A DNA stretch of 32,367 nt, taken from positions 1 through 32,367 of IMG/VR virus record IMGVR_UViG_3300047375_001158; one strand, written 5' to 3'. This document shows, piece by piece, positions 8,045-31,535 of the stretch (its first letter is position 1; every line of letters starts with the position of its first letter). The position numbers and the translations under genes were made by a program. A model generated the notes under the pieces. It did no database searches. It saw nothing but the letters and a program-made list of their open reading frames with translations, and had not been told where the DNA came from. Source of the DNA: a virus.

Positions 8045-8368
8045 ATGAAAAAATTTTGTTTTGAATGCGGCACCAAGCTTGAATATAATTTCAATCCTCC
8101 AAATTTTTGCCCTAATTGCGGGGCGAACTTAAAAACAGGGGACTCTAAAAAACCCAAACCTACTCAATCAAAAATATCAGCTGACATTTCAAAGTCTTCC
8201 GAGGACTCTGAGGGTTATACTGACGCCAGTTACATACCAAATATCTCGAGCCTACAGTATGAGATTGAGGACTTTGGAGCGACGTCGCAACAAACTATTG
8301 GATCTCTTGGAGGCAAGCAGAGTCCTAGAAGATGGAAAAATTCTATCAGGAGAATTGACGATCTATAA
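8045..8368 (+). CDS. Small zinc-ribbon protein
   Basis: The 107-aa protein begins with a zinc ribbon of four Cys: CFEC at residues 5-8 and CPNC at 22-25. The rest is low-complexity and polar (KKPKPTQSK and a Ser/Asp-rich stretch) and ends in a basic tail (SPRRWKNSIRRIDDL). Its stop overlaps the start of the sigma-like gene by one base (TAATG), so the two are translationally coupled. It may act with that protein or with RNA polymerase, but this is inferred from position only. Confidence 0.75.
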   Translation: MKKFCFECGTKLEYNFNPPNFCPNCGANLKTGDSKKPKPTQSKISADISKSSEDSEGYTDASYIPNISSLQYEIEDFGATSQQTIGSLGGKQSPRRWKNSIRRIDDL

Positions 8369-9039
8369 TGTACATCTTTCAAGATAAAATAGAGCAAATT
8401 GAGACAGCGATAGAAAGAAAAAGAGCAAAATGGAATTTAGATGCGGTAGCTTATATAGATTATGATGATATAAAACAAATCATCATGACCCATATTTACA
8501 AGAAGTGGCATTTATGGGACCAATCAAAACCTATCGAACCTTGGTTAAGTAGAGTAGTCTCTAATCAGTTTAAAAATTTATTGAGAAATCATTATGGAAA
8601 TTACGTTAGGCCCTGCTTGCAATGTAAATTCAATAATGGAGGAGACGGATGTTCCAAAACAAAGAGCGGCATTCAGAACGAATCTTGTCAAGAATATAAG
8701 CAGTGGTCCGTAAAGAAAAAAGCTGCTTACGACATAAAGCTGGCTGTTACAATGGAAGGCCATATAAATGAAGTTAACGAAAAAAGAGATTCTTTTTTAA
8801 ACTTAGAATCTGCGACGGCAAAACTATCGGCAGAAATGCAAACCCATCTTAGTGAAAGACATTTTAATGCATTTAAAATGATGTATATAGAAAATAAAAC
8901 AGATGAGCAAATTGCAAAATATTTAGGATTCAAAACCAATGAAAAGAAGCGATCAGCTGGCTACAAACAAATAAAAAATTTAAAAAAGATTTTCCAAGCA
9001 AGGGCTAGACAGATAATTCAAGACAGGGATATAGTATGA
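8368..9039 (+). CDS. Sigma-factor-like transcription protein with Cys4 insert
   Basis: The 223-aa protein has the layout of a minimal sigma-70-family factor. Residues about 33-77 (KPIEPWLSRVVSNQFKNLL within a helical block) resemble sigma region 2, which binds core polymerase and the -10 element. Residues about 160-210 (SERHFNAFKMMYIENKTDEQ and a following KKRSAGYKQIKNLKK) look like the helix-turn-helix of region 4. Between them sits a Cys4 cluster, Cys83, Cys86, Cys95 and Cys107, probably binding zinc; this is unusual for sigma factors. Its start overlaps the zinc-ribbon gene and its stop overlaps the next gene (ATGA). The gene lies within a unit headed by a GTGTAA motif, so it may activate its own operon. 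The family call is by pattern only; a DNA-binding protein of another kind is possible. Confidence 0.6.
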   Translation: MYIFQDKIEQIETAIERKRAKWNLDAVAYIDYDDIKQIIMTHIYKKWHLWDQSKPIEPWLSRVVSNQFKNLLRNHYGNYVRPCLQCKFNNGGDGCSKTKSGIQNESCQEYKQWSVKKKAAYDIKLAVTMEGHINEVNEKRDSFLNLESATAKLSAEMQTHLSERHFNAFKMMYIENKTDEQIAKYLGFKTNEKKRSAGYKQIKNLKKIFQARARQIIQDRDIV

Positions 9040-20370: not shown

Positions 20371-21513
20371 TTAGCTTCTTGCGTTGCCTAGTACAGTAGA
20401 GGCATTTGAACCAGAGAAAAATACGTTATTGACATCGTCATTAGGGCCACCAATCGATAGAGAGAAACTCAAATCAACAGTCTTATTTGGTCCGATGCTC
20501 GAACTAAATGATTGGCTGTCAAGCTTAAGCTTTTTGAGCTTATAAGAAGCTCTTGGTGTACTGCCTGAGTCTGCGTCTTTGAACGTAAACTGAAGTTCAT
20601 CAATGAATTGGTCATCGTTAATGATGTCAGTCAGAGATGCTGACTGTGTCTCAGAAACGATAGCGGAAACAGAAAGTGTCGGAGTGATCGGGAAGTCAAC
20701 AACTCGAGCGAACGAAAAGCGAGATCCTAGTTTGTCGATAGGAGTTCTGCTGAGTGGGATTGAAATAGATACGCTTTGAACGTGTGCTGAGCCATCTCCA
20801 TCAAGGTCAACGAAGCTGTCTCCGTCTGCACTAGCAAGAGATAGGGTAATGTCTCCTGGGCGAAGAGCGGTTGGAATGTCTGCTCCAGTGCCTTGCAAAC
20901 CTACTGGAAGAGCGATGCCTAAATCTTGCTCAGCAAGAGATGTTCCGAGTTCAGGGTCGATTCCGACACCAGAAATGCCAGAATATCCGTTAGTCGAACC
21001 AGAAACACCAGCAGTCGCATTCATGTTTGTTCCTTCAAGTGATAGAGAAACTGTTGGAATGCTACCTACGGAAGCTTCAAGGCTGTAATCAGTAAGGAAA
21101 GCATTTCCAATACCTATTGTGTTGTAATTTGTAGATCCTACGGCTGGATCAAAGTTTGCGTCTACACCTTCTGGAGCCGTCAAAATGTAGAAGTTTTGAC
21201 CACTTGTGGCGGAAATTTGTCCCGAAATAAAACCAGCATCAAAGCTTGTTCCATTTTTAAATTGAAGGGCTTGCTCGTTGAAGCCGTCTCCGAGGAAGTA
21301 AGACATATCAAAAGACACCGTGGGTGCCTCAAGAATGATAGAATCGATTCTCGCAAGTTGACCAAATTGGTTCACATCTTGACGAGTGATATTTAGTGAA
21401 TAATTAGCAGATTGTACTCTGCGAAGTTGGACGTGCTCGCTGCTTCCAGTAGAATTTACTGTTTGGCTGGCGAACAGCGCGTCGGATTGATAAATAACTC
21501 TATTTTTAGCCAT
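20371..21513 (-). CDS. Major tail tube protein candidate
   Basis: The 380-aa protein is almost all beta pattern. Its codon use is strongly biased and GC-richer than its neighbours, like the capsid genes, which points to a very abundant virion protein. An N-terminal domain includes LRRVQSANYSLNITRQDV, EAPTVSFDMSYFL and FLTDYSLEASVGSIPTVSL. A second domain has a Gly/Asp-rich turn (DSFVDLDGDGSAHV) followed by VQSVSISIPLSRTP and a C-terminal strand-rich end. Two smaller genes at 5454-6251 and 6463-7311 share the first-domain scheme. The gene is last in the minus-strand neck/tail block, the position expected for the tube. No canonical GTGTAA precedes it, but CTGTAA lies 15 bases before the ATG. 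Confidence 0.72.
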   Translation of the reverse strand: MAKNRVIYQSDALFASQTVNSTGSSEHVQLRRVQSANYSLNITRQDVNQFGQLARIDSIILEAPTVSFDMSYFLGDGFNEQALQFKNGTSFDAGFISGQISATSGQNFYILTAPEGVDANFDPAVGSTNYNTIGIGNAFLTDYSLEASVGSIPTVSLSLEGTNMNATAGVSGSTNGYSGISGVGIDPELGTSLAEQDLGIALPVGLQGTGADIPTALRPGDITLSLASADGDSFVDLDGDGSAHVQSVSISIPLSRTPIDKLGSRFSFARVVDFPITPTLSVSAIVSETQSASLTDIINDDQFIDELQFTFKDADSGSTPRASYKLKKLKLDSQSFSSSIGPNKTVDLSFSLSIGGPNDDVNNVFFSGSNASTVLGNARS

Positions 21514-21528
21514 GATATTTTATATTGT

Positions 21529-21534
21529 TTACAG
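21529..21534 (-). promoter_or_regulatory. Variant motif CTGTAA upstream of the tail-tube gene
   Basis: The minus strand reads AATTAACTGTAAACAATAT before the ATG at 21513. It departs from the GTGTAA consensus at the first base and has no clear A/T tract of six. It may be a weaker or unrelated site; the strong codon bias of the gene would argue for a real local promoter. Confidence 0.3.
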
Positions 21535-21555
21535 TTAATTGTGTTGATTGTGAAA

Positions 21556-22416
21556 TTATGATCTAGGATATCTTACTGTAGATACCTCAAAATCAATAAA
21601 CCCGACTTTTATTTCGCCAGGGAGGGAGGATTGAGATTTTTGTGAAAATTTAGAAACAGTAACGTCGTCAATAAAATAAGGGTTACTCTCGAGATATAGA
21701 TCCCTTAAGGACGAATAATTATAAGAGCCGTTTTTGACATCGCCATATTCTGTTGAGGGGTGAGAAGAAAAGGGTATTTTTGCAAAAGATTTTCTAGCAG
21801 AGTCTGCAAAAATAGAAAGAGATCCGTCTAACTGATACTCGTTTTCAGCAAGAACTACCGCTTTAATAGAATTGTTTGTCTTGTCTTCTCCGCCAAAAGC
21901 AAAGCCTTCGTTTTTCATAAATTCACAATTTAAAAATATAGCTGGAACCATTTGGTCGTAAGGCTCCAAGCCCTCTATGGTAGGGGTTCCGTACCTGCTA
22001 TTTAGGGTGAACTTATTTTCTATGATCAAGTCTTCTTCTGTGTCGTTAGTGAGGTATATGTTAAAATCTTTTACGGCAAAAGTTCCTGTTGCGTTGTTGG
22101 CTGTACCTGCGCCAGTATGCAAAATTCTTCCATTTTCGTAATCATAAATATATTCCGATCTCTCTAGCTGAGAACCTTGATCTAAGATTGAATTTGGGTT
22201 AGCAATAATTGGGTTTACTTCTCCTGTTATTGAAGAGTCATTAACCCATTGTTTATAATTACTTTGAAGTGGCGTCCAAGGAGCTGGCAACCTGCTATCT
22301 GGCTTAGAAAAAAGTGTCCCCGTTTTATTTGAATAAGCTTCCCCTTTTTGAAGTAGTTCATGGTCAAACCACATAAAAAAACTGGTCATTAATTCGTGCT
22401 GGTACTGGGGTTTCAT
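21556..22416 (-). CDS. Hypothetical virion structural protein (neck/tail)
   Basis: I do not recognise a named family for this 286-aa protein. It opens with helical QYQHELMTSFFMWFDHELL, then a long beta-rich body containing the strands FNIYLTNDTEEDLIIENKF and PAIFLNCEFMKNEG and ending GEIKVGFIDFEVSTVRYP. The order in the block, between a gp10-like protein and the tail tube, fits a tail terminator or neck protein. A GTGTAA motif lies exactly eight bases before the ATG without a Shine-Dalgarno sequence. Confidence 0.6.
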   Translation of the reverse strand: MKPQYQHELMTSFFMWFDHELLQKGEAYSNKTGTLFSKPDSRLPAPWTPLQSNYKQWVNDSSITGEVNPIIANPNSILDQGSQLERSEYIYDYENGRILHTGAGTANNATGTFAVKDFNIYLTNDTEEDLIIENKFTLNSRYGTPTIEGLEPYDQMVPAIFLNCEFMKNEGFAFGGEDKTNNSIKAVVLAENEYQLDGSLSIFADSARKSFAKIPFSSHPSTEYGDVKNGSYNYSSLRDLYLESNPYFIDDVTVSKFSQKSQSSLPGEIKVGFIDFEVSTVRYPRS

Positions 22417-22424
22417 AAAAATAT

Positions 22425-22432
22425 TTACACTA
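22425..22432 (-). promoter_or_regulatory. GTGTAA promoter-like motif, 8 bases from ATG
   Basis: The minus strand reads TTAATAGTGTAA, then the spacer ATATTTTT, then the ATG at 22416. The motif overlaps the last codons of the upstream gene region (stop at 22433). Confidence 0.65.
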
Positions 22433-23020
22433 TTAAATAGTTAAGTTTTGAAATTCTTTCCTATATTTATTTAGAAGGGCTGATATATACTGAACATTTT
22501 TAAACTTTACCCCGTTTTTTCTAACTTTTCTTGGCGATTGGATACCTAGACCAGACCTACTATTATCTCTTTCTACTTTTAAATAGTAGCCTAGTCCAGA
22601 TATACCAGTTTCTATGCCCTTGGCCCAGCTTCTTCCACTAGCCCAGGGCATTGGGGTAGCGTCAAATACATCTTTGGGGTCTGGTATATAAATAGAAAAT
22701 TCAATTGATTTACCCTTAATGGTGGCAAATTCAAAGTTGGTTTCCTGTAGTATGTTTTCTATTTGCTTTGTCGGGTCTCCCAGCGACTCGTCGAATCCTA
22801 TGAATGAGTATAAACTGGTCGCTCCTCCGAGAGTGCCGCTAATATTTTGAGCACCCGCGCCTTGTTTTATTTCTATGGTGACTGGGTGATTTAAAAAATC
22901 AGCAATCATTTGATTTTTAATCCTCTGAAAAGCCGCTCTCCCCCTTTTTTGTATTTCGTTTCTGAGTATTTTGGGAGCCTGCTTCTCTAGGCTGGATATG
23001 ATTTTTAGATCGAGAGGCAT
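22433..23020 (-). CDS. Neck / tail-completion protein candidate (HK97 gp10-like)
   Basis: The 195-aa protein has an N-terminal basic helix (ILRNEIQKRGRAAFQRIKNQ), a short beta region with PVTIEIKQGAG, and a C-terminal MPWASGRSWAKGIETGISG. This combination of a long basic helix followed by beta strands and a Trp/Gly-rich segment is reminiscent of gp10-like tail-completion proteins. It starts where the preceding gene stops (one-base overlap). The call rests on pattern and gene order. Confidence 0.5.
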   Translation of the reverse strand: MPLDLKIISSLEKQAPKILRNEIQKRGRAAFQRIKNQMIADFLNHPVTIEIKQGAGAQNISGTLGGATSLYSFIGFDESLGDPTKQIENILQETNFEFATIKGKSIEFSIYIPDPKDVFDATPMPWASGRSWAKGIETGISGLGYYLKVERDNSRSGLGIQSPRKVRKNGVKFKNVQYISALLNKYRKEFQNLTI

Positions 23021-23499
23021 TATGATGTCGGTGCATTTTGAAGCTCTTCGATCGGCTCCAAATAAAAATGGTAATACTGAGGTCCAAATATGCCAGTAGG
23101 GTTGCCTTTTGTAACTATTTTGTACTTTCCACCCTCAAACTCGCACCTTTTTGCTTCTTTTAAAATATTAAACCCAGAGGCGTCTACGGTAATTCTAACC
23201 GAACCATCTATCACTTCTATGTCTAGCTGACTGTTTATTTTTTCACCAGCTAAAGCTACCTCTTTAGCATCTATATATTTTATTCTAGCCTTAACAGTGT
23301 GAGCTTCTGAGCTTATTGATGTGCTAGATTCTCCAGAGTCAGTTCTGCCATATATTCCGTTGTATTCTTGGCTCGCTGCTATTAAAATTTTTACACCGTC
23401 TTTGTATACAGTGATATTTCTAGCAAATGTTTCATGTATGTCGTCAATGATTGATTTGATAGCGGTCTTTTGCGAGTCTGAGATTAAAGAAGTTGCCAT
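23020..23499 (-). CDS. Head-closure / head-tail connector candidate
   Basis: The frame is open to 23541, but the ATG at 23499 lies exactly eight bases after a GTGTAA motif and gives 159 aa, so I choose it. The protein has an N-terminal helix (SDSQKTAIKSIIDDIHETFA) and a beta-barrel-like rest (NITVYKDGVKILIAASQEYN, then a GIYGR motif and TVKARIKYIDAKEV). The size and fold pattern fit head-closure (stopper) proteins. As first gene of the neck/tube block it is in the right place. Assignment is tentative. Confidence 0.5.
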   Translation of the reverse strand: MATSLISDSQKTAIKSIIDDIHETFARNITVYKDGVKILIAASQEYNGIYGRTDSGESSTSISSEAHTVKARIKYIDAKEVALAGEKINSQLDIEVIDGSVRITVDASGFNILKEAKRCEFEGGKYKIVTKGNPTGIFGPQYYHFYLEPIEELQNAPTS

Positions 23500-23507
23500 A
23501 TCTACTT

Positions 23508-23525
23508 TTACACTTTTTTGTGTAA
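23508..23525. promoter_or_regulatory. Back-to-back divergent GTGTAA promoter-like motifs
   Basis: TTACACTTTTTTGTGTAA holds one GTGTAA on each strand sharing a single 6-base T/A tract. The minus copy is eight bases from the ATG at 23499 (spacer AAGTAGAT). The plus copy is 19 bases from the ATG at 23545, and that leader has a GGGACAAGGA Shine-Dalgarno-like sequence. Confidence 0.8.
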
Positions 23526-23544
23526 AGAGTTCGAGGGACAAGGA

Positions 23545-25577: not shown

Positions 25578-28500
25578 ATGGCATCGGCAAAAGTACCAGT
25601 AACATTCACACCAGTAGATTCAAGGAAAGTAGACGCGGCATTAGCAAGAATTCAGGCCAAGGCTAAGGGGGTTGATTTTGGAGGAGGCGCGGCGTCTATA
25701 GGAAAGCTTTCCAGGCCTCTTGGAAAGATAACGGGACAAGCCTCAGAATTTCAAAAATCACTTGAAGCTTCTAATGCTCGTGTCTTGGCTTTTGGAGCAT
25801 CTGTCGCTGTTATAAATAAACTTTCACAAGCCTTTGGGGCTTTAGTCGCGAACACTATTAAAGTAGAGGCAACTTTCGCTAAAATTAATACAATCCTAGG
25901 AGCGTCGACAAAAGAATTAGAAAAGTTTGGAAATGGTATATTTAAAGTAGCCCAACAAACTGGAACATCTTTTGATCAGGTTGCCGAAGGCGCTCTAGAG
26001 CTAGCTAGGCAGGGTTTAAGTGTTGAGGAGTCTCTAAATAGAGTTTCCACTTCTTTGAAGCTTGTTCGCGTTGCTGGAATTGATTCAGAAAAAGCTGTTT
26101 CGGGTTTGACTGCAGCTATTAAGGGTTTTGAGGGGGCTGGATTAACTGTGGCTCAAATTGCAGATAAACTAGCGGAAGTTGATACGAAATTTGCTGTATC
26201 GACTGAGGATTTGATTAACGGCCTTGAGAGAGCTTCGGCTTCTGCTCGAGTCGCTGGAGTCTCTTTTGATGAGTTATTGGGTGTTGTTACAACTGTTCAG
26301 GAAAGAACTCAGCGTGGTGGTGCTGTTATTGGTAACGCCTTTAAAACTATTTTTGCCAGACTAAGTAGGACTGATACCTTAGATACTCTTGAGCAGTTGG
26401 GTATTGAAGTTTTGGACGCCCAAGGAAATGTAAGATCGGCGATACCTCTCTTTACGGAGCTTGCCGCTGAACTAGACAAACTTGGACTACAAAGTCTTAA
26501 GGCTGGAGAAATTATTCAAAAAGTCGCTGGTGTTCGTCAGCGTGATATTTTAATTAGCTTGGTTGAAGATTTAAATTCTGGACAAAGTCAATTTGCCAAA
26601 GCACTACAGGTATCTGCGGGTGCCGCTGGAGCTCTAGATGCCAAAAATGAAAAATTGAATCAAACCCTAGAAGCTTTAATTAATAACCTGACCGTTGGCG
26701 GCCAAAAATTAGCTTCTGTTTTGGGGGAAATAGGTTTTACAGACGCGGCAGCAGATATTCTAAAAACTTTTTCAACAATAGTTAGCGGCATAACTGATAT
26801 TTTGCAAGGAGACAGCATAGGGGCAAAATTTGCGCAAGGACTCGTTAAGGGAATAGGTAGTGTTTTGACTGGCCCTGGTCTAGCCTTGATCGGCGCTATA
26901 TTTGTTAAGTTGTTTTTGGATTTAGCTAAATTTGGAGCCAGTTCTTTAAAACAAATTTTAGGAATCAACAAAGCAGCTATGCAGCAAAATGCCCTGCAGC
27001 AATCCGTCTTGCAAACATTACTGCAGAACGAAGATATACAAAGAGAAATTTTAAAGCTAGAGGGTAACAAGGTTGCTCAAGAACAATTACTTTTAAAAAT
27101 TTATAACCAACAAGCGGCAGCTTTAGCTAGAGTTCAAAAAGCTGCGGCAACTGTTTCTCCTGGTCTTTTTGGTAGAGGGTTTAGGGGCGGTGAAGGCGGC
27201 GTAGGAAAAACTGGAAGAGGTGCTAGTGGTTATGTAGCAGCTGAAGCTCGTGATGTATCTAGAGGAGTTGGTGGAGCGCCCGCAAGCTCTAAGGTAGTCT
27301 CGATTCCAAACTTTGCTTTTGGTGGCGGTAAGCGAGGAACAATGGTAGCAAATACAAGCGAGTATTTTGTTCCTAATTATGCTGGAGGTGGAGATGCTAT
27401 ATTTAATCAAAATATGGTTAAGGCTATGGGTCTTCCTGCTGGCGCTAGAAAAATAAATGCAGCTGGTGGATATATACCAAATTTTGTTAGAACTAGGGTT
27501 GGAGCTGGTCTTCCTGCAAATAATAGATATAGAACTAACAATCTTTCTGAGCTTGAGAGGATAGATCCATCAAAATTAAAAGGCAAGGCCCGAAAGGAAT
27601 ATGATGCTGCACTAGCTTCTAAGCAAAAGGCTAAAGTAAAACCATTAAATTTAGACGCTTCTGCGTATTCTTATTTAGTTCCCCAGTTTAATTTTTCACA
27701 AAAGGGAGGACTATCAAAAACTGGAAGTTTTAAAAAAGGAAAAAAAAGTTTTCCGTTTTCTCTTTCTAATTTTTCGGCATTTGGCCCAAGAATACCAGGA
27801 GGGGTTGCTGCTGCTGGAGACCCTCAAGATGAATTTCTTGAAGAAAATATAACCAATTCTTTAGTAAAAGAATCTCAAAAATATGCGAACATATTAACCA
27901 AGGCTGTTGGTGGTAGAGTGGTAAGCGGAGGTAATTTAAGGACTAAATTTTCTTCTGGAGGTACAAAGGGTGCGTTTGGCGCATTAAGATCTTCGGTAGG
28001 TTCGGCTTTTGAAATAGCTACCTCAGAAGCGTTGGGAATAGATGATGCCGCTGTTAAAAAGGGTGGGGGAGATTTTGATATAAGAAATCCTAGCCAAGAA
28101 GCTAAGAAAAAATTAGAAGCACTTTTTGGGTCAGCAGGCGGCAGATCTAAAGGAGAATTTAAAGTAAGCACTTCTATAGATAACATTGCTAGTTTTGCTA
28201 AAAAAATAGCTACAGAAAAGAAAATGGCTTCGGGTGGTTATATTCCAAATTTCGCCATGTCGCCTCTTGACGATGCTATTGAAAGAGAAAAAGCCGCTGG
28301 CCTACCAATTAATCAAATTAGAATTAATCAAAGCGGAAAACTTCGTAACGCCCAAAACCCAATGGGTCTTGCTGTAACTAATACAAGAGATGAGCCAACT
28401 GGAGCAATACCAAACTTTACTGCATTTTCTTCGCTAAAAGAAGCTAGGGCTTCGAATATGTCGGACAAACAAATTGCCGCTGGTTTTGGGGGAAAGGCTG

Positions 28501-31500
28501 CGAAGGACGAAATCAATAATCTCGGTAAGTCTGCGGGTGCAACCTCTAGCGCTTTGGACGCTTCAATCGGAAAGATTTTTGCCTTACAGCTAGGTGTGAG
28601 CGCAATAACCAACAGCTTCGCTGAACAGGGCGGCAAGATGCAAGAATTTGGAAACTCGTTGAGCGGGGCGATAAACACAATGCTAGTTCTGTCGACGGTT
28701 GGCGCTAGCCCTTTAGGCGCTTTCGGTAAAGGTGGAGGAGGACTAAAGGGCCTTGTGGGGTTAGCAAAAAGTACAAAGGGTTTAACGAGAGTTTTCGGTC
28801 TACTTAAGGGTTTGGCGGGGCCAGTCGCTTTAGGTTTCACGGCGGTAGATATCGCTCTTAAGTCATTTACAGGCAAGGGAGTTTTGGGCTACGCTAAAGA
28901 TGGATTAGTTGCTTTGGGACTTGCAGCAAGCGAATCTAGTAAGAAATTTGCATCATCTGCCGAAGAGTTTGCGCAAAGAACATCGGGACTAGGAGTAGGC
29001 GGTTCAGTTAACGTAGCGATAGAGCAGCTTCGAAAAGAAGCTAAGGCTAGATCTTTAGGTGTAAAAGCTGAGGAACTAAGCGAATCAGTTCTAGCTTTTT
29101 CTGGAGTATCTGGTTTGAGAGCTGGTCAACAGTTAAAAGGGCCTGAGCAGACAGTTATCACATCAGCGAATTATGCGGGTGTATCAACTTCGACTTTTCG
29201 ACCAACAGGAACCCTCACAAAAGAACAGTTAAAACCAGTTCAAGAAGCACTAGGAAACTTATTCGCAGGTTCTGCCGAGGAAATACAAAAAGTAATACCA
29301 GGGATATCGGACGAAAATGCACAAGCATACATAGAAAGCCAAGCTGAAATAGTTAAAGATTTAGATGCCAAGATTAAAGCGGCAGTAATTGCGGGCGTTA
29401 ACGTTGAAGATAATATAAATACCGCAGCGCAAAGCACTAGAATTGCAATAATTGATATGTTTTTGCGCGCCCAAAAAGCGGCCAAAGCGGAAGCAGTAGA
29501 AGTAGAAGATGACATAGAAAGAGTCAGCGGTAGAGATGCCGCTACGGCGATAGCTTTAGCCGCATCAAGAAGACAAAATCAAATAGATATATCTGCCGCA
29601 CAAACAGCCGCCAGAAGAGAACAACTTCAAAGAACGCCAATGGGCAGCGTTGAAAGAGCAGGCTCTGCTTTTGCTTCTGAATCAGATGATCTAGAAACCT
29701 CAGCCAAGTCAGAAAGACTTAAGATAAGGACATCTTTGATAGAACAAGCAAAACTTCAAGAAAGCCTGAAAGACATAGAAAAAGAAAAATTAGATACTAT
29801 TTTAGCCCAGGTTAGCGAGTATGGATCTATTGAAGAAATCCAAAAAGCTATCGGATCTATACAAGGTGTATCAGTAGATAATCTTGAAGAGTTGGTTCAA
29901 TTAGCTGAACTTCAAAATACGCAGCTTGAAGAAGCCCTAGCAAAAGACAAGCAAATTTTAGAAATTAGAAAACAACAAGCCATAGAGACGGCAAAAGCCA
30001 ACAAGGGTTTAGCTAAATATTCAAAGGACGCGCAACAAGATTTAATAGATCAAGCGGAGAATTTACCAAATATTTTAGCTACCAATTTGGAGCAATCATT
30101 ATCTCAAACGTTTAATAATCTGGCAAATGGCGCTCACGATACCGTTGGTGATGCTCTTTTAAGTATAGCCTTAAGCTTTGGTCAAGAGCTACAAAATCAA
30201 ATGAATCAAAGACTAGCAAAGCAGACTACAAGCGCTTTGTTTGGTGAGGGCACAAAAGGAGGTGGACTACTAGAAGGCCTCAGTGATATGATTACTGGAG
30301 GCGGTGACAAAGACGGTCAGGGCAACAAAGGCGGTAAGGGTGCAAAAGGAGGTGGACTACTACAAGGCATCAGCGGTATGTTTACTGGGGGCGGTAACAA
30401 AGGCGGCGGCGGCTTCTTTAAAGATATTGGCAGCTTTTTTGGATTTAATTCTGGAGGTATTGTTCCAGGAGGCTCAGGTGTCCGCGATGACGTGCCAGCA
30501 GTTTTGACTGGTGGAGAGTATGTTATTAAGAAATCCGCAGTACAAAAATATGGAAAAGGTTTTTTGGATCAATTGAATTCAAGTTCAGTAAACGGGATGC
30601 AGGAGGGGGGCTTCTTCGTACCAGGCACCCGAGGACAAGGGCAGATTAAAGGTAAAGATAATTTACTAAAATTCGCCCTACAACAAAGCACATCTGGAGC
30701 AACAGACTTTATAAGGTCTGGTGGATCGGCAGCATCTATAGACCTAGAAGTTCAAAGCTCGAGGCTTACGACATTTGGTAGGTTCAGAGATAGTCCAGCT
30801 AGGAGATCGTTAAGGGAAGCTCAGGAGAAAGCTTATAATTTATATTTGGCGAGACTAGAAGAAGAAGAAAGAGTAAAGCAAGCTAAAAAAGCTCGTAGCA
30901 ACATGCTCAAAAGCGGCATTACGGGGGCTTTTACGAACCTTGGTATTGGGGCTTTAACTGGAGGACTTGGTAGTCTTTTCAACAAACCAGGTGGAAACTT
31001 TTCTTCCCTTGGCTCGTTCGAGGCTGCGGCCAACCAGTATTCCTCTAATGCTCTAGGTTACAATGTCGGATCAAATCAGTCTGGCACTTTTGTTAATCTT
31101 GGCGGTGGGCAAACTTACGACGCTTCGATGGCTGGAAGCGGAAACGGGTTTGGAGACTACAGAGCGTTCGCAGGTGGAGGAAGTGTATCAAGTGGATCAA
31201 ACGCTTTGCTGATGGGTGGAGAATATGTATTATCTTCTGCGGCGGCTTCTAGGATTGGTAGAGAAAACTTGGACGATATAAACATGATGCGATACTCGAA
31301 TGGCGGACCTGCTGGAAATGTAGCGTCCGATTCTAGTAATTCTTCGTCTGGTGTTGGAGAAGTCAATATAACAATAAACATGGAAAAAGGAGATGCGTCT
31401 GTTGACGAAAATTCAAACGGCGGAGCAGACCCAACGCAAACAAAAGAATTTGCTAGACGAATTAAAGACGTAGTTGTAGGCGTTATTAATGAAGAAAAGC

Positions 31501-31535
31501 GCGTATCTGGGTCTCTGTTTACTAGGAGAAAATAA
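25578..31535 (+). CDS. Tail tape measure protein
   Basis: The 1985-aa protein sets tail length and helps eject DNA. Residues about 60-370 follow the TP901-type tape-measure core (KINTILGASTKELEKFGNGI, FDQVAEGALELARQGLSVEE, EIIQKVAGVRQRDILISL). Hydrophobic segments occur around 420-450 and 1020-1120. Five IPNF-like motifs lie at about 576, 596, 632, 888 and 942. Residues about 800-880 look like a PD-(D/E)XK nuclease fold. The second half is Ala/Glu/Lys-rich and helical. Near 1624-1658 and 1875-1895 there are Gly-rich GGEYVI and GGEYVL motifs common at tape-measure C-termini. At about 0.15 nm per residue a fully helical protein would span close to 300 nm, but the Gly-rich inserts mean the real tail may be shorter. 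Expression is probably driven by the motif at 25557. Confidence 0.93.
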   Translation: MASAKVPVTFTPVDSRKVDAALARIQAKAKGVDFGGGAASIGKLSRPLGKITGQASEFQKSLEASNARVLAFGASVAVINKLSQAFGALVANTIKVEATFAKINTILGASTKELEKFGNGIFKVAQQTGTSFDQVAEGALELARQGLSVEESLNRVSTSLKLVRVAGIDSEKAVSGLTAAIKGFEGAGLTVAQIADKLAEVDTKFAVSTEDLINGLERASASARVAGVSFDELLGVVTTVQERTQRGGAVIGNAFKTIFARLSRTDTLDTLEQLGIEVLDAQGNVRSAIPLFTELAAELDKLGLQSLKAGEIIQKVAGVRQRDILISLVEDLNSGQSQFAKALQVSAGAAGALDAKNEKLNQTLEALINNLTVGGQKLASVLGEIGFTDAAADILKTFSTIVSGITDILQGDSIGAKFAQGLVKGIGSVLTGPGLALIGAIFVKLFLDLAKFGASSLKQILGINKAAMQQNALQQSVLQTLLQNEDIQREILKLEGNKVAQEQLLLKIYNQQAAALARVQKAAATVSPGLFGRGFRGGEGGVGKTGRGASGYVAAEARDVSRGVGGAPASSKVVSIPNFAFGGGKRGTMVANTSEYFVPNYAGGGDAIFNQNMVKAMGLPAGARKINAAGGYIPNFVRTRVGAGLPANNRYRTNNLSELERIDPSKLKGKARKEYDAALASKQKAKVKPLNLDASAYSYLVPQFNFSQKGGLSKTGSFKKGKKSFPFSLSNFSAFGPRIPGGVAAAGDPQDEFLEENITNSLVKESQKYANILTKAVGGRVVSGGNLRTKFSSGGTKGAFGALRSSVGSAFEIATSEALGIDDAAVKKGGGDFDIRNPSQEAKKKLEALFGSAGGRSKGEFKVSTSIDNIASFAKKIATEKKMASGGYIPNFAMSPLDDAIEREKAAGLPINQIRINQSGKLRNAQNPMGLAVTNTRDEPTGAIPNFTAFSSLKEARASNMSDKQIAAGFGGKAAKDEINNLGKSAGATSSALDASIGKIFALQLGVSAITNSFAEQGGKMQEFGNSLSGAINTMLVLSTVGASPLGAFGKGGGGLKGLVGLAKSTKGLTRVFGLLKGLAGPVALGFTAVDIALKSFTGKGVLGYAKDGLVALGLAASESSKKFASSAEEFAQRTSGLGVGGSVNVAIEQLRKEAKARSLGVKAEELSESVLAFSGVSGLRAGQQLKGPEQTVITSANYAGVSTSTFRPTGTLTKEQLKPVQEALGNLFAGSAEEIQKVIPGISDENAQAYIESQAEIVKDLDAKIKAAVIAGVNVEDNINTAAQSTRIAIIDMFLRAQKAAKAEAVEVEDDIERVSGRDAATAIALAASRRQNQIDISAAQTAARREQLQRTPMGSVERAGSAFASESDDLETSAKSERLKIRTSLIEQAKLQESLKDIEKEKLDTILAQVSEYGSIEEIQKAIGSIQGVSVDNLEELVQLAELQNTQLEEALAKDKQILEIRKQQAIETAKANKGLAKYSKDAQQDLIDQAENLPNILATNLEQSLSQTFNNLANGAHDTVGDALLSIALSFGQELQNQMNQRLAKQTTSALFGEGTKGGGLLEGLSDMITGGGDKDGQGNKGGKGAKGGGLLQGISGMFTGGGNKGGGGFFKDIGSFFGFNSGGIVPGGSGVRDDVPAVLTGGEYVIKKSAVQKYGKGFLDQLNSSSVNGMQEGGFFVPGTRGQGQIKGKDNLLKFALQQSTSGATDFIRSGGSAASIDLEVQSSRLTTFGRFRDSPARRSLREAQEKAYNLYLARLEEEERVKQAKKARSNMLKSGITGAFTNLGIGALTGGLGSLFNKPGGNFSSLGSFEAAANQYSSNALGYNVGSNQSGTFVNLGGGQTYDASMAGSGNGFGDYRAFAGGGSVSSGSNALLMGGEYVLSSAAASRIGRENLDDINMMRYSNGGPAGNVASDSSNSSSGVGEVNITINMEKGDASVDENSNGGADPTQTKEFARRIKDVVVGVINEEKRVSGSLFTRRK
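27978..28220 (+). other. PD-(D/E)XK-nuclease-like segment within the tape measure
   Basis: Residues about 801-881 of the tape measure read SVGSAFEIATSEALG (Glu812), GGGDFDIRNP (Asp832, Asp834), then a spacer with a charged helix, and GEFKVS (Glu860, Lys862). The order Glu on helix 1, Asp on a strand, and E-x-K on the next strand matches the PD-(D/E)XK endonuclease core. The segment is flanked on both sides by IPNF motifs, which suggests an inserted module. Nuclease activity is not shown by sequence alone. Confidence 0.5.

Follow-up and report, generated by a model that had tools for sequence, protein, structure and literature searches.

Tape measure proteins (TMPs) of siphophages in general fill the tail tube and, as the DNA enters, are released into the envelope or cytoplasm of the host, and in polymorphic toxin systems enzymatic cassettes are exchanged behind a conserved delivery backbone. 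In lambda the TMP is known to contact the inner-membrane ManYZ machinery, and work on SNIPE places siphophage TMPs at the inner membrane during injection (PMC13190303). Enzymatic activity in a TMP-related protein is reported for Tme, a tapemeasure-related effector of the contractile injection systems of Streptomyces davawensis, for which endonuclease activity was demonstrated (PMC11126660). Phages and plasmids also encode multidomain polyvalent proteins, in which enzymatic domains of unrelated kinds are joined and which are presumed to accompany the DNA into the cell (PMC5512222). A survey of protein mosaicism saw signals in TMPs as well, genuine recent cases of which could not be confirmed (PMC10684548).

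The locus described here lies in a 32,367-base IMG/VR virus record (IMGVR_UViG_3300047375_001158; the whole of this stretch is hereafter 'the window'), where a putative nuclease domain occupies an exchangeable slot, bounded by IPNF motifs, inside a TMP. We found no description of IPNF-bounded TMP cassettes in the open-access literature, and the nearest concepts are the polymorphic toxins and the polyvalent proteins. Swappable enzymatic cassettes on a conserved delivery backbone, the hallmark of the former, are found here too, but the cassette in the window is internal rather than C-terminal, and no co-varying immunity gene was found beside the TMP in two swapped pairs. Any likeness to polyvalent proteins would lie in their joining of unrelated enzymatic domains and their presumed entry with the DNA; here, by contrast, it is the TMP that acts as carrier, its slots being bounded by motifs, and the word 'tape' is absent from the main text of PMC5512222. 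Tme is likewise a TMP-related protein with a nuclease domain, loaded in a phage-tail-like particle, but its nuclease is C-terminal and EndA-like (DRGH and H-N-N motifs), its particle is a bacterial injection system and not a phage, and the available portion of that report describes neither IPNF motifs nor an exchangeable slot (PMC11126660).

The segment of interest lies inside a plus-strand open reading frame at 25578-31535, which also holds all TMP features given below. Its 1985-residue product is identified as the TMP by matches to TMP sequence families (PF10145, 6.4e-28; PHROG tape-measure families, down to 3.5e-45) together with its great length and its position in the tail region; the PF10145 (PhageMin_Tail) match covers residues 124-304 (25947-26489). 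Among cultured phages, TMPs of the Bacillus Slash and SPbeta groups resemble the N-terminus, at 28-30% identity only. Downstream, a first IPNF motif (residues 576-579, 27303-27314) and a VPNY motif (residues 598-601, 27369-27380) precede the two IPNF motifs that bound the cassette, at residues 633-636 on the left (27474-27485) and 889-892 on the right (28242-28253), and a further IPNF follows at residues 944-947 (28407-28418). The last two of these enclose a small 'NPxGLxVxNTRDEP' module (residues 893-943, 28254-28406), which occurs in about half of the aligned relatives, stays in place when the adjoining cassette is swapped, and had no match in a search of cultured phages. Elsewhere in the window, a four-gene block on the minus strand just upstream of the tail genes (20371-23541) has the same order in three related contigs (L002, L003, L028), and a plus-strand gene at 8368-9039 encodes a protein with a sub-threshold match to sigma-70 region 2 (PF04542, 8.4e-5; 22.7 bits against a cut-off of 24).

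The initial annotation had read 27978-28220 as a nuclease core, and this interval does correspond in frame to residues 801-881, with Glu812, Asp832, Asp834, Glu860 and Lys862 where they had been placed and IPNF motifs on either side, at residues 633 and 889. The segment itself had no match in Pfam or PHROG and none above chance in cultured phages; a single-sequence search of the latter with the domain returned matches at chance level only, which we dismissed, and a PDB sequence search gave no convincing match, its hits to lectins (GxxFE-like stretches, E about 0.01) being taken as chance along with Pfam near-misses. A single-sequence scan of IMG/VR recovered only the close relatives L001-L003 (86-100%), the first of which is nearly the same virus as the window, and the flanking motif was therefore searched instead. 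Scans for DNA coding for GYIPNFA and for GFIPNFA each returned at least well over a hundred virus contigs which, among the matches listed, bore mostly TMP-like reading frames with several IPNF motifs; loci chosen in this way are selected independently of the nuclease signature. An iterative HMM seeded with the domain of the window found 90 domain places at first and 145 after loci were added, all in IPNF-bearing reading frames and none in any other of the 4812 reading frames (~2.1 Mb) of the fetched loci, a restriction that applies to these loci because most were fetched by the motif. As judged from these relatives, the named residues head a real domain family, previously unnamed.

Conservation within this family falls where a PD-(D/E)XK active site would have it. 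Alignment of 106 diverse members, mostly 15-48% identical to the window, shows that most columns other than the signature positions vary freely, although collection by HMM biases such an alignment toward conserved columns. In the signature core (residues 801-881, delimited from the HMM family and this alignment), Gly808 of the GxxFE motif (27999-28001) is invariant (106 of 106), as are Asp834, the second acidic residue (28077-28079), and Lys862, the Lys of (D/E)xK (28161-28163). The first acidic residue, Glu812, lies in a helix (28011-28013) and is E in 102 members and D in 4; the acidic residue of (D/E)xK, Glu860 (28155-28157), is D in 69 and E in 37; and Lys876 in the following helix (28203-28205) is K in 89 and Q in 16 of 105. 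The key residues had been expected to vary freely should the nuclease reading be wrong; across 82-106 diverse homologues the proposed catalytic ones do not, and of the residues named E812, D834, E860 and K862 are conserved. Asp832 is not, being D in just 20 of 106, so that Asp834 alone is left as the second acidic ligand. One member that lacks the Lys (L027) was still picked up by the HMM, and losses are therefore detectable and rare. The E...D...(D/E)xK pattern seen throughout the homologues is the sequence signature of PD-(D/E)XK nucleases, and alternation of D and E at 860 beside a strict Lys862 is what an active (D/E)xK site would show.

The domain sits in a cassette that has moved between TMPs. 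Between the window and a relative with the same family in its slot (L028), TMP identity in 40-residue bins is 72-95% up to residue 640, 12-20% over residues 641-880 and ~70% over residues 881-960, falling thereafter; at the left IPNF boundary it drops from 80% (residues 601-640) to 17% (residues 641-680), and at the right one it rises from 12% to 67%. Placed between these well conserved flanks, the exchangeable cassette comprises residues 637-888 (27486-28241), and the two slots are only ~20% identical. Where the N-termini of two TMPs are 86-99% identical, BLAST often finds no relation between their slot contents, and for the 261 pairs with upstream flanks at least 60% identical the median identity is 70% upstream of the slot, 25% within it and 73% downstream of it. 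A second relative, L002, shows the converse. Silent sites in the N-terminal part are saturated (dS 1.91), whereas the slot has a dS of 0.22 and is 91% identical at the nucleotide level. Identity at third positions goes up near residue 620 and down again after about residues 920-940; the cassette has therefore moved horizontally between divergent TMP backbones. The cassette-like character suggested initially is thus borne out by both identity profiles and silent-site divergence, which switch at the IPNF motifs, and the L002 and L028 comparisons provide confirmed recent TMP mosaicism of the kind sought earlier without success (PMC10684548). Slot dN/dS is ~0.32 against L002 and 0.25 against L003, and the cassette is under purifying selection among these close alleles. 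Two further stretches of the TMP, residues 1101-1320 (28878-29537) and about 1781-1880, have 15-40% identity to L003 amid well conserved sequence.

Slot cassettes of the relatives were scanned against Pfam models, and further classes were judged by eye. Staphylococcal-nuclease-type (SNase) domains occupy equivalent slots (PF00565, best 2.2e-9 among the scanned cassettes), and AAA/P-loop models match some slots (best 0.002). One relative (L099) carries an SNase plus nuclease-like cassettes in its TMP, against a single recognised enzymatic cassette in the window. SNase-like slots were noted in L099, L137 and L197, the latter two judged by motif; GNAT acetyltransferase-like cassettes lie between IPNF motifs in L050 and L054 (PF00583, best 7e-5); and a P-loop cassette (GPAGTGKTT) at residues of about 630-796 fills the first TMP slot of L020, L035 and L092. 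Classes assigned by eye only include ADP-ribosyltransferase (ART)-like (L159, L198, L102), kinase-like (L053, L159), HAD (phosphatase)-like (L204, L035) and nucleotidyltransferase-like (L166) cassettes, as well as several additional PD-(D/E)XK-type sites in other slots.

We favour, with modest confidence, the reading that the region of interest is a PD-(D/E)XK-like nuclease domain carried in the TMP as an exchangeable, IPNF-bounded cargo cassette, which would be ejected and whose evolution would be driven by conflict. By analogy with siphophage TMPs in general, the protein would thread its way into the envelope and cytoplasm of the host before the DNA does; the cassette would then fold in the host, hold a divalent metal with E812, D834 and E860, and use K862 in cutting DNA near the entry site. 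Because a TMP resides in the tail lumen and is released during DNA entry, the cassette would be delivered before any phage gene is expressed. Its likeliest purpose would be conflict, namely early cleavage of host, plasmid or rival-phage DNA, a role we favour because the slot is so strongly exchanged and diversified; steady exchange and divergence may keep the cargo ahead of the counter-measures of hosts and competitors. Against this reading stand the structural models, which show no proper sheet and had no Foldseek match, and a profile comparison with Mrr that was not significant. Moreover, a nuclease that enters together with the phage genome calls for self-protection, and no immunity gene co-varies beside the TMP: in the pairs L089/L118 and L022/L106 the recognisable neighbours are conserved although the cassettes differ. 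Self-protection, if needed, would thus have to come from folding only after ejection, target specificity or DNA modification.

A broader proposal, which we advance more tentatively and which seems to us plausible if somewhat doubtful, is that the IPNF-bearing TMPs of a large group of uncultivated phages are polymorphic cargo carriers in which the IPNF motifs act as universal joints, for threading, folding or cleavage. Their slots would swap nucleases, SNases, acetyltransferases and ADP-ribosyltransferase-like, kinase-like and NTPase domains, and the slot in the window would hold a new family of PD-(D/E)XK-like nucleases, with circular permutation within the slot a possibility for some of its copies. 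Since slot contents are swapped for other nucleases and enzymes, the tails look like delivery devices with interchangeable cargo. If true, the ruler of the tail would double as an interchangeable system for delivering early effectors, before any phage gene expression, which would explain why many TMPs are so long and so mosaic; it would also add a large stock of nucleases and effectors that have yet to be named, and its motif-bounded slots might be usable for protein delivery.

Among the alternatives, the one that fares best would have an active nuclease serve phage entry itself, by nicking or trimming the phage's own DNA end or by clearing host DNA at the entry site. The near-universal presence of the nuclease-like domain (84 of the 103 TMPs that were long enough and whose N-terminus matched) fits such a core function and could indicate entry instead of conflict; a separate immunity gene was not seen beside the TMP in the two swapped pairs, and the idea of a DNA-entry nuclease has been put forward for Tme (PMC11126660). 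Yet alleles only ~20-25% identical within near-identical TMP backbones would be unusual for a housekeeping step, and some TMP slots hold other nuclease-like or non-nuclease cassettes, so we regard an entry role as unlikely.

Structural models bear on a second alternative, that the domain is catalytically dead or purely structural, its acidic and Lys cluster binding metal or stabilising folded cargo. Two AlphaFold models, from 59 and 106 sequences (mean pLDDT 82.3), place E812 in a helix, D834 in a strand and, after another helix, E860 and K862 in a second strand that a further helix follows, which is the order expected. The core strands are, however, only two, of 2 residues each, where the superfamily has a central sheet of about four, and Foldseek searches of both models against the PDB and viral models gave no matches. 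Family members share a conserved N-terminal part (about residues 698-775, 27669-27902), in which motif alignment suggests two strands, the first marked by 'xLVP', followed by a helix. Neither model includes this part in full, and the conserved strand pair at residues 698-735 is missing from both. That the models show no PD-(D/E)XK sheet would suit a dead or structural domain, as would the fact that TMPs are structural proteins. The catalytic positions are nevertheless the most invariant of the domain, with the D/E alternation typical of active sites, and in dead PD-(D/E)XK relatives E, D or K is usually missing. We therefore consider a dead domain distinctly improbable, and return to the nuclease reading.

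Assignment to the PD-(D/E)XK-like group rests on the conserved signature and not on the fold. No significant profile similarity to any known PD-(D/E)XK family was found in Pfam, PHROG, PDB sequences or by hhalign against Mrr, which is weak evidence against the assignment because a search with one member of this superfamily often fails to detect another. Mrr domains share with the family the GxxFE...D...(D/E)CK pattern, and the order seen in PD-(D/E)XK nucleases such as Mrr_cat (PF04471), a GxxFE helix, an acidic residue after a hydrophobic one and then hydrophobic-(D/E)-x-K, is the same; the domain in the window differs in that a helix separates the strand bearing the D from the one bearing (D/E)xK, and the N-terminal side possibly supplies some of its sheet. 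With hhalign, the family and a small Mrr profile aligned at the GxxFE motif only; the score was the best against 30 column-shuffled controls, but the E of 0.11 is not significant. Copies in five relatives (L071, L009, L092, L179, L204) start directly after IPNF and extend further at the C-terminal end, where they carry a similar strand, 'xVIIP/MLF', a possible circular permutation within the slot. If permuted, these copies would come nearer to the textbook order of PD-(D/E)XK strands. An HMM built from the domain's N-terminal portion gives only a weak match at the C-terminal end of these copies, and permutation is therefore kept as a lead.

The sharp exchange boundaries at IPNF could also be explained by a homing-like device, in which the nuclease acts mainly in DNA exchange between phages and promotes cassette swapping at IPNF-coding sites; nucleases are reportedly often located at the boundaries of phage genetic exchange. 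The domain is, however, not free-standing but fused in frame into a protein of the virion, and cassettes other than nucleases swap at the same boundaries, which makes this explanation very unlikely. It is scarcely credible that the signature arose by chance in a region of ordinary TMP filler, under little constraint and recombining freely, given a consistent HMM family with invariant residues in 106 relatives, close-allele dN/dS of 0.25-0.32 and the occurrence in equivalent slots of SNase and other enzyme families, even though mosaic signals, with genuine recent cases unconfirmed by earlier work, are known in TMPs (PMC10684548).

IPNF-bearing TMPs with the nuclease-like domain were also observed in metagenome-assembled genomes (MAGs) labelled Verrucomicrobiales and Flavobacteriaceae (L129, L130, L134), which are possible host groups unless phage contigs were mis-binned. 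Among 248 relatives searched for one Flavobacteriaceae MAG, the domain occurred in that MAG only, on two contigs that may be binned phage.
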